Shown here: positions 3,115-18,414 of the stretch, in pieces
Numbering within the stretch: the stretch's first letter is position 1
How the letters are laid out: each line of letters begins with the position of its first letter
From: Proteiniphilum sp.
GTDB lineage: Bacteria > Bacteroidota > Bacteroidia > Bacteroidales > Dysgonomonadaceae
DNA length: 34,295 nt
NCBI GenBank assembly: GCA_031255275.1
Contig: JAIRSV010000056.1
Coordinates: 1 to 34,295, forward strand
Reading direction: 5' to 3'
Program-made: the position numbers and the translations under genes
Notes under the pieces: generated by a model
What the model was told of the DNA's origin: nothing
The model's input: the letters and a program-made list of their open reading frames with translations, nothing else
Databases searched by the model: none

Positions 3115-4746
3115 TCAGATTTCCACCTTGTATATATGTTGCCTGAAGGGTTCTTCCGTCACGAAATAGAGATAACGGTTACTTTTGCGGATCCTGTCCG
3201 GTAACGGAACAAACAGATCACCATCCCCCGCGAATCTGTATCCGGAGAGCAGGCGTCCCGACTCGTCGAGCAGCCGGAACGAATAGGAAGCGGGAGTAAA
3301 CGAAGGGTCGGACAGGCTGACCGTATAACCGCCGGAAGCCTCGGGACGGATAACCCATCCACTGTCCTCAACCCTTTGAGGATAAGAATTCAATTTGCCC
3401 AACACCTCTTTCAGCGCCAGGTGAAAATCGGGAATACCGTACCCGTATATGGAATCGGGATTTGCATACCTGTCGGACGACCGCCTGACTATATCGAGCA
3501 CTTCCGAACGGTGCAGGGTCGGATTGGCCGACCACAGAGAAGCTATCAGTCCCGCCAGGAAGGGGGAAGAGAGCGAAGTTCCATACGCCCGTCCGATCGA
3601 TCCGTCCTGTCCGATGATAACGGTTCCCCTCCCCACGGAGACCAGATCAGGTTTGATACGGCCGTCAGCCGTCAGTCCCTGCGAACTGAAAGAGGCGATA
3701 ATGCTGTCCGTCCCCGCGGCGCCCACGGCCAGCACATTTTTCGCATCGGCCGGCGGGGTAATCTTCCGCCAGGGCTTACCCCCCTCATTGCCGGCGCTCA
3801 CCACAATCAGCAGACCTTTTTCAAAAGCTTTGTCCGCAGCCCGCGACATGAGTGAAACGCTGCCGTCAAGCAGCGCGTGCGTATAGTTAAGCGACGTATC
3901 GTCGAACCGGCTGTATCCCAGTGACGTGTTGACGACGTCCACACCCAGACTGTCGGCAAACTCAACAGCCCGCACCCAGTAATCTTCCTCCACGGGAAAC
4001 TCGCTCGTGGCATCTTCCGACCGCAGGAGGAAGTAGATGGCCTCCGGCGCGGAACCCATCATCAGTCCGGGCAGATTTGTCGCCATCGTCGACAGGACTT
4101 TGGTACCGTGGTCACTCGAAGCGAAAATGCTTCCGCCGGGGACAAAGTCCATATACCCCTCCAGTCTGACCGATCCGAAATGAGGTATCACATCGAAATT
4201 GGTGAACCCGGCGTCGATCACTCCTATCAGCATCCCCCTGCCTCTGAATCCGGCATCTGCCATGAATGTGGCATTGTGCATCCTGAACTGGTCGCCGGTA
4301 AAACCGTATTCGGTATCGGGATTCACCTTTTCGTCAGACACCAGACGGGGACGGACTACTCCGCCTCCCGGCAAGGGTTTGTTTCCCCGCCAGACATACT
4401 TCACGGAATCGACAAACGACAGGGATTCGATATTGCCGATCATCAGACTGTCGCTGACTTCCACCACCATAGTGGCAAACCACTTGCTGTGTGTGATGAC
4501 CTTTCCGCCGGCTTTCTCCACCAGCGTGAAACAGTCGGGCGAGAGGGGAAGATCCGATTCATCAATTACCACCTTTTCCTTCTTCTTTCTTTCGATTGCC
4601 CGGACGGAAAGAAAGGCGCCGGGATTGTCCGTCGAAAAGGCGCCGGTATTGCCTTTATCCTTCAGGTAAACGCGAAACTTGTATGAAGTCTGTCCGGAAG
4701 AGAGAAGGGGGGAAAGGGATAAAAGAAAAAGGAGTAAATATCTCAT
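3115..4746 (-). CDS. Secreted S8 (subtilisin-like) serine peptidase
   Basis: Signal peptide; catalytic Asp (IGVIDAGF), His (SSDHGTKVLSTMA) and Ser (GTSLSSPFLAGLIA) motifs. Confidence 0.92.
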   Translation of the reverse strand: MRYLLLFLLSLSPLLSSGQTSYKFRVYLKDKGNTGAFSTDNPGAFLSVRAIERKKKEKVVIDESDLPLSPDCFTLVEKAGGKVITHSKWFATMVVEVSDSLMIGNIESLSFVDSVKYVWRGNKPLPGGGVVRPRLVSDEKVNPDTEYGFTGDQFRMHNATFMADAGFRGRGMLIGVIDAGFTNFDVIPHFGSVRLEGYMDFVPGGSIFASSDHGTKVLSTMATNLPGLMMGSAPEAIYFLLRSEDATSEFPVEEDYWVRAVEFADSLGVDVVNTSLGYSRFDDTSLNYTHALLDGSVSLMSRAADKAFEKGLLIVVSAGNEGGKPWRKITPPADAKNVLAVGAAGTDSIIASFSSQGLTADGRIKPDLVSVGRGTVIIGQDGSIGRAYGTSLSSPFLAGLIASLWSANPTLHRSEVLDIVRRSSDRYANPDSIYGYGIPDFHLALKEVLGKLNSYPQRVEDSGWVIRPEASGGYTVSLSDPSFTPASYSFRLLDESGRLLSGYRFAGDGDLFVPLPDRIRKSNRYLYFVTEEPFRQHIYKVEI

Positions 4747-10034: not shown

Positions 10035-12833
10035 TCATTCGGTGTCATCCGTTTCGTATTCGTAACCCCATGTTCTGCCCTTGTCTGCGGCGGGAACGCC
10101 TTTTGTCATCCAGACGGGGGCCGGCGCTCCTTTCAGGTAGTGGTCGAAGAACTGCTGAAGGCGGATGGAGAGGTCTTTGGCGTTGCGGCGTTCCCGAAGG
10201 TTGTGTGCTTCGTTGTTGTACTGCAGCATCCAGACGGGTTTCCCGAGCCGGCGCAGTGCCATGAAGTATTCTATGCCCTGATACCAGGGTACGGCGCCGT
10301 CGTTGTCGTTGTGCATGATGAGCAGCGGGGTGCTGACGTCTCGGGCGTAGAAGAGGGGGGAGTTTTGAAGGTAGAGGTGCAGCGAGTCGCTCATGGGCGA
10401 TCCGATGCGCGACTGTGTCTGCTCGTACTGGAACTGGCGGCTGCGTCCCGATTCCCAGCGTATTCCGCCGTAGGCGCTGGTCATGTTTGATACCGGCGCG
10501 CCGGCGCCGGCGGCTTTAAACAGGTTGGTCTTCGTCACCAGGTATGCCACCTGATAGCCTCCCCAGCTTTGTCCCTGTATGGCCATGTTGCTTTTGTCTG
10601 CCCAGCTGTTTTCGGCCAGGGCTTCCGCGCCGGCTACGATCGAATTGTAGGCGTCCTGACCCGGTTGACCGGTCGTGTAATGTATGTCGGGGGTGAAGAC
10701 TATGTAGCCGCGGCTCACGTAGAAGGGTATGTTGATGGTGGAACGGCTGGGGGTCGGGGCAAAGTGGCTGTGCAGGTTGTCGGAATGTTGTTCGTAGAAG
10801 TAGATCATTACCGGGTATTTCTTTGCGGGATCAAACTCCTCGGGTTTGTATACGATGCCCTGATGAGGCACTCCGGCAAGGGAGGTCCAGGAGAAGAGTT
10901 CGGCCCTTCCCCAGCTGTATTCGCGCATTTGCGGATTGATGTCGGTCAGCTTTTCGGCCGACTGCCAGAGGTTGTGGGTGACGTGGAGGTCGGGCGAGGT
11001 GTGGAAGTTGCTTTTCAGGAAGGTGTATACTTCGCGCTCTTTCGCTTTCCTGACGGACGGGAAGGTATATGTGTCCATTATCCGTTTCTTCAGCGGATTG
11101 CGTCCCTTTGGGGCGAGGGTGTAGTAGCCGGATCGTTTGGTTGTTCTCTCGAAGGCGGAGAGGAGTAGCCGGTCGCCGGCTTCGATGAATCGCTTTTCGG
11201 GGTCGGTGTTCACATACCGGAACGTAATGGAGTCGTTTCTCCCGGCTTGACCGGTGATGTTCTCAGGTTTCATCTCTCCTTTGGGGTCGATTTTCCAGAT
11301 GTCGAATGCGTCGTAGACGAGTACCGACGCGTCGTTTTCTGTCCAGGCGGCAATTCCGTAGGCGCCGGGGGGTGAGGGGATGTCGTTTTTCTCGTCCCAG
11401 AAGTTGACGGGGATATTCCCGGTGATGTTTTCGGTGGATCCGTCGCGGTTGTCACGGGCGAACCACTGACGCTCGGTGGCGTCCCACCAGTATACGAAGT
11501 TGCCCTGCGGCGAGAGGGAGGGTCTTCCTCTGAGGGGGGTGGCGACGGTTTGCAGTGTACCCGTTTGGGCGTCCCATACCCGGACGTCGTTCATGGGGGA
11601 GATGTCCCACTGACTTTCGAGCTGATAGGGTTCGTCAGACCAGAGCAGGGCGAAACGGCCGTCTCCTTCGTCCGAGATCTGACAGAAGGGGGTCTCTTCG
11701 CCGGCGATGGGGATGAACCGGTCAGGCTGTTCGGGGAGGATGATTCCCGTATACGTCCGGCGCTGTCTGTTTTTCAGTTCCACCAGCTGCTGGGGCTGAA
11801 TCAGTGGCTCGCGCCAGTGCCAGACGTCGAGTGTTGCCGTTTCAAAATCGACAATGGTTGTGTCTTTGGGCGCCTGTTGCGGGGCGGCTCCGAGGATTAC
11901 CCGCCTGCCGTTCCGGCTGAATCGCGGGGAGGAATGTTCGTTGAAGATCCGGTTTTCGGGAAGTCCCTCTGTGTTTTTGCCGGCGAGGATGACGGCCGAA
12001 TCGGTTCCGTTGCGGAAATACCGTACGTCGAAGACCTTCTGTGCGATTTTTGACGTATCTCTCGTGGCCAGGTACAGGAGCTGGTCGCCGTTTTCGTCGA
12101 AGGCCAGCGATTTGTATTCCGCCTTTTCGCCGGAGATGCGCCGGGAGGTATTCTTTCTCAGGTCGCAGAACAGGACGCCGGGGGTGTCGACAGAATCTTT
12201 CTTGTCAGGTTCGATGATGGCGGCCAGCGCGTTTCCGTATTTGCTGAAGATGTATTCTTTCGCGTTGGGGACGGTATCCTCGTGTTGCGTGAGGGTGTTG
12301 CGGATCACGAGCAGGTTTTTTGACCCGGACGATGTGTCCTTTTCCCCGGTCGAGTCGCTCTTCGGGGTGAGGGTGTAGGCTACGTGGGTGAGCGCCTTTT
12401 CCGGGACTTTGAATGTTTTGACACCGGCTATTTTCTCGATGTCGAACGTGCTGTGGCGGATCACGATCAGTGAATCTTCCGGCATTTCGTCCGCCTTTTT
12501 CTTTTTTATCCGCGCCTCCCGCCGTTCGGCAAAGGGGGCTTTGATCAGGCCGACCGTATATTGTCCGTCGGGTGAGAGCGTGAAGCTTTTCACGCCCTTC
12601 AGCATCAGCGTCTGACTGTTTTTGAGGTCGCGAAGGAAGAGGGTGCTGTCGCCCTCCTGCGGACTGATGATGGCGCCGACGTAGCGGCCATCGTCGCTTA
12701 CGGAGATGTTTTGAAGGCTGTTCCAGCCGTCGAAGGCCGAATGGTCGAGCGGTTTCTTCCGGGCGAGCGCCGCCGTACTGAAGGTGATGTGAAAGAGGAT
12801 GAGGATAATGCTGAAATGGGGTATGAGTCGCAT
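10035..12833 (-). CDS. Secreted S9 prolyl-oligopeptidase-family peptidase
   Basis: 932 aa; N-terminal signal, beta-propeller-like region, nucleophile motif AIQGQSWGGYQVAYL, Asp region HNDNDGAVPWYQG, His region NNEAHNLRERRN. Confidence 0.92.
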   Translation of the reverse strand: MRLIPHFSIILILFHITFSTAALARKKPLDHSAFDGWNSLQNISVSDDGRYVGAIISPQEGDSTLFLRDLKNSQTLMLKGVKSFTLSPDGQYTVGLIKAPFAERREARIKKKKADEMPEDSLIVIRHSTFDIEKIAGVKTFKVPEKALTHVAYTLTPKSDSTGEKDTSSGSKNLLVIRNTLTQHEDTVPNAKEYIFSKYGNALAAIIEPDKKDSVDTPGVLFCDLRKNTSRRISGEKAEYKSLAFDENGDQLLYLATRDTSKIAQKVFDVRYFRNGTDSAVILAGKNTEGLPENRIFNEHSSPRFSRNGRRVILGAAPQQAPKDTTIVDFETATLDVWHWREPLIQPQQLVELKNRQRRTYTGIILPEQPDRFIPIAGEETPFCQISDEGDGRFALLWSDEPYQLESQWDISPMNDVRVWDAQTGTLQTVATPLRGRPSLSPQGNFVYWWDATERQWFARDNRDGSTENITGNIPVNFWDEKNDIPSPPGAYGIAAWTENDASVLVYDAFDIWKIDPKGEMKPENITGQAGRNDSITFRYVNTDPEKRFIEAGDRLLLSAFERTTKRSGYYTLAPKGRNPLKKRIMDTYTFPSVRKAKEREVYTFLKSNFHTSPDLHVTHNLWQSAEKLTDINPQMREYSWGRAELFSWTSLAGVPHQGIVYKPEEFDPAKKYPVMIYFYEQHSDNLHSHFAPTPSRSTINIPFYVSRGYIVFTPDIHYTTGQPGQDAYNSIVAGAEALAENSWADKSNMAIQGQSWGGYQVAYLVTKTNLFKAAGAGAPVSNMTSAYGGIRWESGRSRQFQYEQTQSRIGSPMSDSLHLYLQNSPLFYARDVSTPLLIMHNDNDGAVPWYQGIEYFMALRRLGKPVWMLQYNNEAHNLRERRNAKDLSIRLQQFFDHYLKGAPAPVWMTKGVPAADKGRTWGYEYETDDTE

Positions 12834-13072
12834 AATATTTATTTTTTAATTGATGGAACTGTTCCGGTAAGAGAACGGGCTGAATTTTATCAAAATTAAA
12901 ATTTAATGTTCAAAAACGGAGGACGAATATACGGGAAAACTTTGTGTTTTACAATATATATGGGATACATTCGTCTCACACAGGCATTTTTCGCTGAATG
13001 ATCACACTCTCACCCCTGACACATACTCACCGTTTCTGCGCGTCAGTACGGACTGAAAATGACCGCGGGAGA

Positions 13073-13530
13073 TAAATCATGCTTTCAGAGGAACAGGAAC
13101 GTCCCGCCGAGGGTAAAATCATGCTTTCAGAGGAACGGGAACGCTCCGCCGAGGGTAAAATCATGCTTTCAGAGGAACAGGAACGTCCCGCCGAGGGTAA
13201 AATCATACTTTCAGAGGAACGGGAACGCTCCGCCGAGGGTAAAAGCATACTTTCAGAGGAACGGGAACGTCCCGCCGAGGATAAAAAATCATGCTTTCAA
13301 CGCGACGAGAATGTCCCGCCGAAGGTAAAATCATGCTTTCAACAGGGCGAGAATGTTCCGCCGAAGATAAAATCATGCTTTCAACGCGGCGAGAATGTTC
13401 CGCCGAGGGTAAAATCATGCTTTCAACGCGACGAGAATGTCCCGCCGAGGGTAAAATCATGCTTTCAACGCGACGAAGAATGTTCCGCCGAAGATAAAAT
13501 CATACTTTCAACGCGACGGGAATCTTCTGC
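13073..13530. repeat. Array of ~11 tandem 42-bp imperfect direct repeats (consensus about aaaatcatgctttca[gaggaac/acgcgac]gggaacgtcccgccgagggt)
   Basis: Read directly: two subfamilies (units 1-5 with ...TTTCAGAGGAAC..., units 6-11 with ...TTTCAACGCGAC...), an alternating dimeric pattern in units 1-4, and indels of +2 and +1 bp at units 6 and 10. Confidence 0.97.
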
Positions 13531-13547
13531 CGGCATCATCCCGCACA

Positions 13548-13578
13548 TTGTCCGCAGAGAATAAAATCAGTATCTTTG
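13548..13578 (+). promoter_or_regulatory. Promoter TTG-N20-TATCTTTG of the phosphoesterase gene
   Basis: TTG at 13548-13550 and TATCTTTG at 13571-13578, exact TAnnTTTG box, 40 nt upstream of the ATG at 13618. Confidence 0.7.
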
Positions 13579-13617
13579 TGCGAAACTCTGCAAAGCATTA
13601 TACAATTCATTAAAAGC

Positions 13618-15555
13618 ATGATGACAAACAGCAATAAACCCGTACTCCGCATACGAAGAGCAGTGATATTCCTGCTATTTACACTCATCGTCCAGGCCGG
13701 CCACCCTCAGCCGTCACCGATACGCGTCAACCGGGCCGGACACCCGGAGGATGAGAACAGGGTTGCCTTTCCGCAGCGCGAAAACACCCTCCGCCTCTTG
13801 ACCTACAATATCCATCACGGCGAGGGGATGGACGGAAAAATCAATATCGAACGGATCGGCAAACTGATCATCGACATCAGTCCCGACGCTGCGGGACTCC
13901 AGGAAGTGGACAGCGTGACGGCTCGCAGCGGCGGCATCGACATCATGCAGCAACTCTCGGCCCGGACCGGGATGTATGCCACCTTCGGCAGTTCCATCCC
14001 GCACGACGGCGGACGGTATGGCAACGGCGTCCTGACGCGCGAAAAACCCCTCTCCACGAGGAAGATCACCCTTCCCGGCTCTGAGGAGGCCCGCTCTGCG
14101 CTGATCGTGGAACTCGACAAATATATAATCGTCAACACCCACCTCTCCCTCCACGGCGCCGAACGGCTCGAATCACTCCGGATCATCACCGGCGCCGTCG
14201 ACGCGTATGACAAACCCGTATTCCTGCTGGGAGACCTCAACGATACACCCGATTCGGCACCCCTCACCCTCCTGCGCGACGCGTGGCAAATCCTCACCGA
14301 CCCCTCCCTGCCCACCAGTCCCTCGGTCGACCCCCTGTCCACGATCGACTACATCCTGGGATACACGGCCAGGGGACAGACTTATGCAAAATACGCCACC
14401 CGCGTCGTCGACGACAGCGAAGCCTCTGACCACAGACCCGTTTTTGCGGACATCCGCCTGAAAACCCCCTCCGCCGGCGTGATGCGCACCATCCCCTATC
14501 TGCAAAGCCCCGGCAGCGACGAGATGACCGTGATGTGGCTGACCGGCGTGCCCGCCCGAAGCTGGGTGGAATATGGCACCGATCCCGGCGAAATGAAACG
14601 GGTACGCACCTTTGTCGAAGGCAAGATGGTGGCAAACAACACCATCAACCGCATACGGCTTACCGGCCTTCAGCCCGGCACGCAATACTGCTACCGGGTC
14701 GTTTCGCAGGAGATAACCCGTTACTCCGCCTATTACAAAGAATTCGGCGACACCGTCAGGTCCGGCATCAAAACCTTCACCACCCTGAACGACAGGCCGG
14801 ACGACTTCCGCGTCATCATCTACAACGACATTCACCGCAACACACAACTGTTCGAGAAACTGCACGCACACGTGGATGACAAACCCTGTGACCTGGTCAT
14901 CTTCAACGGCGACTGCTTCGACGACACTGAGTCCGAAAGCGACATCCTCGACCGCCTCACCATCTACACCTCCCGGATAAGAAGCGACGAAACGCCCTCC
15001 ATATTCATCCGTGGAAACCACGAAACCCGTGGTGAATACTCCCTCCGCCTGTGGGACTATCTGGGGAAGATAAACGGACGTTCATACGGTGCCTTTTCGC
15101 TGGGCGGCGTCCGCTTCGTGCTGCTCGACTGCGGCGAAGACAAGCCCGACGATCACCGGGTATACTATGACATGAACGACTTCACCCGGCACCGGATCGA
15201 CCAGGCCGAATTTCTGAAACAGGAACTTGAATCCGAAGAATTTATCAAAGCCGGCAAAAGAGTCCTCATCCACCACATCCCCCTCTTCGGCATGGCCTCC
15301 GACGAGTACGTCCCCTGCGCCGACCTGTGGCAACCGGTTCTGAAAGACGCACCGTTCAACGTCACCCTCAACGCCCACACGCACCGTTTCCGCGTAATCG
15401 AAAAAGGCGAAGCCGGGAATAATTTCCCCGTCGTCATCGGCGGCGGCAACAAAGAGTCAGACGGAACAGTAATGATGTTAGAGAAAAAAGGAGAAACACT
15501 AACCCTCACGGCATTTGATGCAGCAGGCGAAAAGCTACTGGAAAAAACCCTTTGA
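13618..15555 (+). CDS. Secreted two-domain phosphoesterase: N-terminal endonuclease/exonuclease/phosphatase domain plus C-terminal FN3-like and calcineurin-like metallophosphatase
   Basis: EEP: LRLLTYNIHHGEG, LQEVD, VNTHLSLH, LLGDLNDTPDS, SDHRPVFADI. Metallophosphatase: IIYNDIH, VIFNGDCFDD, FIRGNHETRG, LIHHIPLFG, LNAHTHRF. The track start (TTG 13576) overlaps the promoter box, so the in-frame ATG 13618 is preferred. Confidence 0.9.
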   Translation: MMTNSNKPVLRIRRAVIFLLFTLIVQAGHPQPSPIRVNRAGHPEDENRVAFPQRENTLRLLTYNIHHGEGMDGKINIERIGKLIIDISPDAAGLQEVDSVTARSGGIDIMQQLSARTGMYATFGSSIPHDGGRYGNGVLTREKPLSTRKITLPGSEEARSALIVELDKYIIVNTHLSLHGAERLESLRIITGAVDAYDKPVFLLGDLNDTPDSAPLTLLRDAWQILTDPSLPTSPSVDPLSTIDYILGYTARGQTYAKYATRVVDDSEASDHRPVFADIRLKTPSAGVMRTIPYLQSPGSDEMTVMWLTGVPARSWVEYGTDPGEMKRVRTFVEGKMVANNTINRIRLTGLQPGTQYCYRVVSQEITRYSAYYKEFGDTVRSGIKTFTTLNDRPDDFRVIIYNDIHRNTQLFEKLHAHVDDKPCDLVIFNGDCFDDTESESDILDRLTIYTSRIRSDETPSIFIRGNHETRGEYSLRLWDYLGKINGRSYGAFSLGGVRFVLLDCGEDKPDDHRVYYDMNDFTRHRIDQAEFLKQELESEEFIKAGKRVLIHHIPLFGMASDEYVPCADLWQPVLKDAPFNVTLNAHTHRFRVIEKGEAGNNFPVVIGGGNKESDGTVMMLEKKGETLTLTAFDAAGEKLLEKTL

Positions 15556-17755: not shown

Positions 17756-17990
17756 TCTATTGTTACTCTTTTTGATTTTCCCGGCGTCAAAGCTACTAAA
17801 AAGAGGGCGACAATTCCGTTAAATAAATCAAATAATAATGAATCCACGCTCCGGACAGTCAATATTCAATCCTCCAAACATGAAGAAGGACGCCCGCAGG
17901 AGAGACATTCAGCGCTTCGACCGTACAGCCGGTCACAGAGCGTGAATGTTTTCAGTACCCACACCCTCAAAAAAGTTCCTCGAAAATATG

Positions 17991-18021
17991 TTGTATAACA
18001 TGTTTTTTTGTCGTACCTTTG
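17991..18021 (+). promoter_or_regulatory. Promoter TTG-N20-TACCTTTG upstream of an unannotated small ORF
   Basis: TTG 17991-17993, TACCTTTG 18014-18021; near-palindrome ATGTTGTATAACAT (17988-18001) covers the -33 element. Confidence 0.65.
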
Positions 18022-18137
18022 TGCCGGTTTAAATGGCAAGCGAGTTATTGGAAATCACTTTCAGGTTATCGATAAATTACTGAAAAGACCTCTTCAACAC
18101 GGTTGCCGGTAAATCATAACTTAGTAAGAAGAAAATT

Positions 18138-18287
18138 ATGACGACTATCAGAAACCTAACAAAAGAAGAAATTCTGTCGCAGATAAAATATCTGGAACAG
18201 AACATCTCGAACGGATCTGCCTCATACCTGGCTAACCGGGTGAACAGACTCAGAAGTTTGAGAGCCAGTTTGCGCATGGCAAGCTGA
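18138..18287 (+). CDS. Putative small basic protein, 49 aa (MTTIRNLTKEEILSQIKYLEQNISNGSASYLANRVNRLRSLRASLRMAS)
   Basis: Below the ORF-track cutoff; ATG preceded by A-rich aagaagaaaatt, lies between a promoter and a terminator, helix-like composition. Confidence 0.55.
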   Translation: MTTIRNLTKEEILSQIKYLEQNISNGSASYLANRVNRLRSLRASLRMAS

Positions 18288-18385
18288 TCGAAAAGGCACT
18301 AGTCTTAAGCTGAGTAATCCGGAAATGGATTACGAAAGCTTTATTTTAAGAAATTTGATCACTCTATATATATGTATGAACGAAG

Positions 18386-18414
18386 GGCTTCCTCACAATG
18401 GGGAAGCCTTTTTT
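18386..18414 (+). terminator. Rho-independent terminator of the small transcription unit
   Basis: GGCTTCC-tcacaatgg-GGAAGCC followed by TTTTTT. Confidence 0.85.

Follow-up and report, generated by a model that had tools for sequence, protein, structure and literature searches.

A predicted small-protein gene with structured untranslated regions and a Cur-type operator in Proteiniphilum and related Dysgonomonadaceae

The gap between the MATE and LRR genes of the window (the whole stretch of 34,295 nt of Proteiniphilum sp. contig JAIRSV010000056.1 that was analysed) appeared to harbour a genuine small-protein gene with structured untranslated regions (UTRs) and a Cur-type operator, of a sort that annotation tools would overlook. 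The reading favoured here, with reasonable confidence, is that the unit is an mRNA under Cur control and that its product, a new small protein, has RNA or the ribosome as a probable binding partner. Judged from sequence comparison, the unit runs from a promoter of its own through a folded leader, the ORF and a folded 3'UTR to a terminator; the -33 region bears a fixed Cur/Crp-type palindrome. The predicted features, with the evidence for each, were as follows:

17987 to 18002, plus strand: Cur/Crp-type palindrome TATGTTGTATAACATG, overlapping the -33 region (published consensus)
18014 to 18021, plus strand: Bacteroidetes -7 box TACCTTTG (TAnnTTTG) (sequence, 33/33 loci)
18025 to 18137, plus strand: 5' leader, with a predicted start at about 18025 (conservation and fold)
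18138 to 18287, plus strand: ORF of 49 amino acids (homologues and selection)
18307 to 18341, plus strand: 3'UTR hairpin AAGCU-GA-GUAAUCC...GGAUUAC-GAA-AGCUU with a conserved internal loop (covariation)
18382 to 18414, plus strand: intrinsic terminator, a 14-pair stem and T run (fold and equivalents in relatives)

The predicted transcript of about 390 nt (18025–18414), as read from sequence and fold, had a more stable fold than all 100 of its dinucleotide shuffles (z −5.0), and the 3' part of the unit likewise outdid all 200 of its shuffles (z −5.0). ORF, leader, 3' hairpin and terminator were kept together in 32 of the 36 same-genus genomes, and the same four-part unit was also found in named Proteiniphilum, Fermentimonas, Petrimonas and Seramator records. 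A nucleotide search for the unit returned the same genomes as those positive for the ORF. Taken together, the folding scores, the homologues with the same layout, the purifying selection and the compensatory changes in the 3' hairpin showed that the unit is more than a chance arrangement. An earlier note had proposed that a transcription unit missing from the annotation, with a gene for a small protein, lies here; this is well supported by comparative genomics (homologues, selection and promoter conservation). One locus (L057, about 3840–4150; G012:C8:38040-38655) had two tandem copies of the unit, the first running into an N stretch, which may be a true duplication or an assembly artefact.

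The 49-codon ORF with an ATG start was present at 18138–18287 and its peptide was identical to the one quoted earlier. Among 61 genomes searched for the ORF, the one that holds the window and 32/36 of the same genus were positive, and the ORF was identified in 27 named loci, Proteiniphilum, Fermentimonas, Petrimonas and Seramator among them. When 393 genomes from the order were searched with a profile, a real match was obtained only in the window and in one more genome of the same family, and no ORF match in four other genomes of that family. Comparison of 37 homologues showed pN lower than pS in 666/666 pairs with a dN/dS of about 0.19 in unsaturated pairs, and ORF length changed among homologues by whole codons only. 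The start region was ATT ATG ACT in most relatives, ATG ATG ACT in L051 and ATG ACG ACT in the window, L051 (ATG ATG) being intermediate between the usual ATT ATG and the ATG ACG of the window; the start of the window's ORF has thus shifted upstream by a single codon relative to most homologues, with the frame retained. Selection, whole-codon indels and a start shift that kept the frame are strong signs that the ORF encodes a translated and selected protein.

The promoter had been described as TTG-N20-TACCTTTG, and the TTG (17991–17993), the 20 nt and the box (18014–18021) were indeed present, but the conserved feature was a 16-bp palindrome, which was kept in five relatives (L062, L064, L071, L074 and L075) that had lost the TTG. 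The "-33 TTG" sits within TATGTTGTATAACAT, which matches the published Crp/Cur (BT4338) palindrome. A comparative study in Bacteroides gave the motif of this Crp-family regulator as wwwTATGTTnTAnAACATAwww and showed a Cur-like site just upstream of the BT4338 gene itself (PMC3878776). BT4338, later named Cur, is both an activator and a repressor (PMC6989115) and drives the sRNA MasB (PMC10994844). The window palindrome (17987–18002) had one mismatch to the published motif and was scored as a Cur regulon motif, the chance expectation at ≤2 mismatches being 0.08 matches in the window. It was kept in 33/33 loci with a readable promoter, and the -7 box read TAYCTTTG in 33/33 loci, the Bacteroidetes consensus being TAnnTTTG (PMC7366714). 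At ≤1 mismatch the Cur motif occurred at 5 to 21 places per genome, whereas reversing the motif as a control gave 0 to 5.

The centre of the palindrome was 24–27 bp before the end of the -7 box in these loci and 36 bp in L076, where the palindrome was displaced by 10 bp, about one helical turn. Other Cur-type sites in the genus had a -7 box at a distance of 36–37 or 48–49 bp, which matches the helical phase of the 24–27 bp found here. The window site was one helical turn nearer than the class II position and overlapped the -33 element. Its position over the -33 region favours repression by occlusion, whereas helical phasing with the other Cur-type sites favours activation; we infer that Cur controls transcription from the palindrome as either activator or repressor. 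Each of nine relatives' genomes had one member of a Crp-family clade, its gene being closely preceded by a Cur-like site, and the family, the site and the site position suggest that this clade is orthologous to BT4338. No Crp-family gene was found in the window's own assembly, which is 76% complete, so that the presence of Cur was deduced from the relatives. A weaker Cur-like palindrome with two mismatches was found at 12943–12958 of the window, flanked by an S9 peptidase gene (10035–12833, minus strand) and an ORF at 13079. A Cur-type palindrome was also found upstream of a phytoene-synthase-like gene in G013 (L093 / L136), with TTAAATGGCAGGCG, a near copy of the conserved block of the leader, about 150 nt past it in a leader that was otherwise unrelated.

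The structured RNA suggested earlier was borne out in both UTRs. The closing helices of the leader pair 18026–18031 and 18034–18039 with 18103–18115, and the closing pairs GATTT(A)/(T)AAATC and TGGCAA/TTGCC(G) were predicted in 33/33 homologues with a probability ≥0.96. The mean folding z of the leaders was −2.25. A conserved AGGTTATC segment was identified at 18063–18070, and pairwise identity was about 91% in the leader core and 94% in AGGTTATCA, whereas synonymous sites of the ORF differed by about 54% (mean pS 0.54). Changes in the leader helices were few and mostly compatible, with one double change (L073); double changes are few because the leader sequence hardly varies. Convincing matches of a leader covariance model were confined to the lineage of the unit, and the same search found no convincing leader without the ORF in other Bacteroidales. 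Pattern matches to the leader outside the lineage fell within coding genes and were rejected as further copies elsewhere in the family. Two more candidates were discarded: a local helix AAATGGC/GTTATTT showed good pair counts but a mean predicted probability of about 0.003 over the 33 homologues, so no switch is claimed, and a pseudoknot AGGTTAT/ATAACTT was dropped because of uncompensated C changes in several relatives.

The hairpin GTAATCC-GGAAAT-GGATTAC was confirmed at 18314–18333 as the inner part of a longer stem, AAGCT-GA-...-GAA-AGCTT (18307–18341). Changes on both sides were found at 5/7 inner pairs and the covariation score was reached by 0/500 shuffles, which makes this hairpin, on comparative grounds, stronger structural evidence than the leader helices. 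The ORF and the hairpins, on whose conservation in relatives the earlier note had staked its proposal, were both conserved. Its strong terminator was likewise recovered, as a stem at about 18382–18412 in the fold with a T run to 18414 and an equivalent element in relatives, GGCTNCC...GGNAGCC-T(n); although seen in the fold, the terminator at 18382–18414 was not reported by a consensus terminator scan. A second, almost invariant 3'UTR hairpin, GCAGAAAGCAGG..CCTGCAAGTATGC, was placed between the ORF and the 3' hairpin in about half of the relatives (L054, L055, L058, L060 and others) and was absent from the window; a search for the exact pattern found it in five genomes, once in each. Its GAAA/AAGTA internal loop may be sarcin-ricin-like. 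A search against Rfam showed no match in the window, only weak chance matches around the unit and only tRNA in relatives.

These structures also bear on a tentative alternative, a dual-function RNA of the VcdRP kind. The conserved leader, for instance its AGGUUAUCA segment, or the 3' hairpins would pair with other mRNAs, and the ORF would give a second product. This alternative would fit the conservation of the leader beyond that of synonymous sites, the covarying 3' hairpin, the GCAGAAAGCAGG..CCTGCAAGTATGC hairpin, highly conserved in the half or so of relatives that carry it, and a Cur-type site as for MasB, and dual-function RNAs under CRP control are known, namely VcdRP and, cited in the same paper, Spot 42 and AzuCR (PMC8672173). 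However, cis control of translation or mRNA stability explains the leader conservation equally well, and the alternative is rather doubtful. Both comparisons have limits. MasB of Bacteroides thetaiotaomicron is, like the unit, a small Bacteroidales transcript with a Cur site at its promoter, but it is a trans-acting sRNA (PMC10994844) whereas the unit encodes a selected protein. As in the VcdRP type, a carbon-linked Crp-family regulator appears to control a short transcript with an ORF and conserved RNA structure; the unit differs in its phylum, in its longer protein with a predicted fold and in a site that overlaps the -33 element. The protein family is new, but the proposed arrangement, in which a short ORF-bearing RNA is under Crp-type control, is of a kind known from other bacteria. 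A more extended proposal is a Cur-controlled dual-function RNA of the Dysgonomonadaceae whose folded leader and 3' hairpins act on other mRNAs or on the ribosome and whose product, a basic hairpin protein of 48–49 residues, binds the ribosome or RNA polymerase; it was judged unlikely.

On the favoured reading, that of a Cur-controlled mRNA, the protein quite likely represents a new family of 46–50 residues, a basic helical hairpin limited to one branch of the Dysgonomonadaceae. It has a pI of about 10.9 and conserved arginines in the second helix, and AlphaFold2 predicted helices at residues 9–21 and 28–48 with a mean pLDDT of 86. No family in Pfam, NCBIfam or PHROG fitted it, and a literature search for the peptide found nothing. 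None of the plasmid, phage and viral contigs searched encoded it, and a phage or plasmid origin was rejected on that basis. The ribosomal protein uL29 (PF00831), likewise a basic two-helix hairpin, was the joint most frequent weak Pfam match (4/28 members, best E 0.0073, sub-threshold); it was not listed among the Pfam matches of the window protein and did not reach the curated cut-off. An hhalign comparison with the uL29 of relatives aligned 11 residues only. In Foldseek, uL29 was the nearest small-protein shape in the PDB (TM 0.85 by query and 0.72 by target), all Foldseek matches having E values above 1. A uL29 paralogue was rejected on its sub-threshold sequence and profile scores, the sequence scores being below all cut-offs, and relatives carry a normal uL29 gene besides. 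With its Arg-rich second helix, the protein most likely binds RNA or the ribosome, a role suggested by charge and shape alone.

Mimicry of a segment of the RNA polymerase beta subunit, by which the protein would act on transcription, was considered improbable. The N-terminal 25 residues (ORF 2–26) resemble the RpoB helix VKxLTKEDIISIIKYLIQLINSK, with an hhalign E of 6e-7 in one comparison and a score of 36.8 against ≤17.5 in 60 column shuffles; across the order this helix was the non-self match that kept recurring, at genome-wide E values of 2e-4 to 0.01. In statistical terms the resemblance was better than that to uL29. However, it covers a single helix and is marginal once search size is allowed for, that part of beta was absent among the Foldseek matches listed, and (S/T)xEE helix caps are common. 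The RpoB helix resembled (e.g. L104, Bacteroidales) precedes DDIDHLSNRR.

The genomic context suggested a further role, that of a leader peptide and terminator attenuating a downstream gene. A class I aminotransferase gene was found downstream on the same strand in 23/27 named loci, in most of them no more than about 450 bp from where the ORF begins, and a tRNA-Ser(GCT) was located upstream of the unit in 15/23 loci scanned. Attenuation would depend on read-through, but a TAnnTTTG box preceded the aminotransferase, between it and the ORF, in 23/24 loci examined. The unit of the window adjoins neither the aminotransferase nor tRNA-Ser(GCT), its neighbours being the MATE and LRR genes, and L071, L074 and L075 also keep it without an adjacent aminotransferase. 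In the window's genome the aminotransferase gene was found on a different contig, where it has a -7 box of its own but no unit beside it; this retention of the unit apart from the gene indicates that it is autonomous. Since the whole peptide is, moreover, under selection and predicted to fold, attenuation was regarded as very improbable. The earlier interpretation held for the gene and the RNA structure, while it had overlooked the Cur-type operator and the usual site before the aminotransferase gene. Three same-genus genomes (G019, G030 and G035) had no small ORF and no close aminotransferase match at E 1e-60, a joint absence that loss of the whole region would explain. One ORF of the window (13576–15555) fuses an Exo_endo_phos domain with a calcineurin-like phosphoesterase; relatives have similar ORFs downstream of the unit, as two separate frames. 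Finally, the idea that the unit is a structured non-coding RNA whose ORF is decayed or spurious, as a short ORF with structured flanks might suggest, is scarcely credible and was refuted at the comparative level by selection, codon-phase indels and start-codon turnover.

According to the mechanism proposed for the mRNA, Cur, the carbon-limitation regulator in Bacteroides, would act on the promoter palindrome and the leader hairpin would set translation or stability of the mRNA. In the weakest step, the basic protein would bind RNA or the ribosome and adjust translation or mRNA fate when the sugar supply changes. Given the Cur-type site in its promoter, the unit probably helps these anaerobic bacteria to adapt to sugar supply.

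Overall, the protein family and the RNA structure, both strongly conserved, had no counterpart in the protein and RNA libraries searched; their host lineage is known here mainly from metagenome assemblies and a few cultured strains. The unit is an example of a small gene that is recognisable from its operator, the folds of its UTRs and start-codon turnover. If the dual-product reading were true, one 390-nt transcript would give two products coupling carbon supply to gene expression. The findings suggest that the Cur carbon-limitation network extends beyond Bacteroides to control a small protein, a link that is amenable to testing in culturable Proteiniphilum or its relatives.
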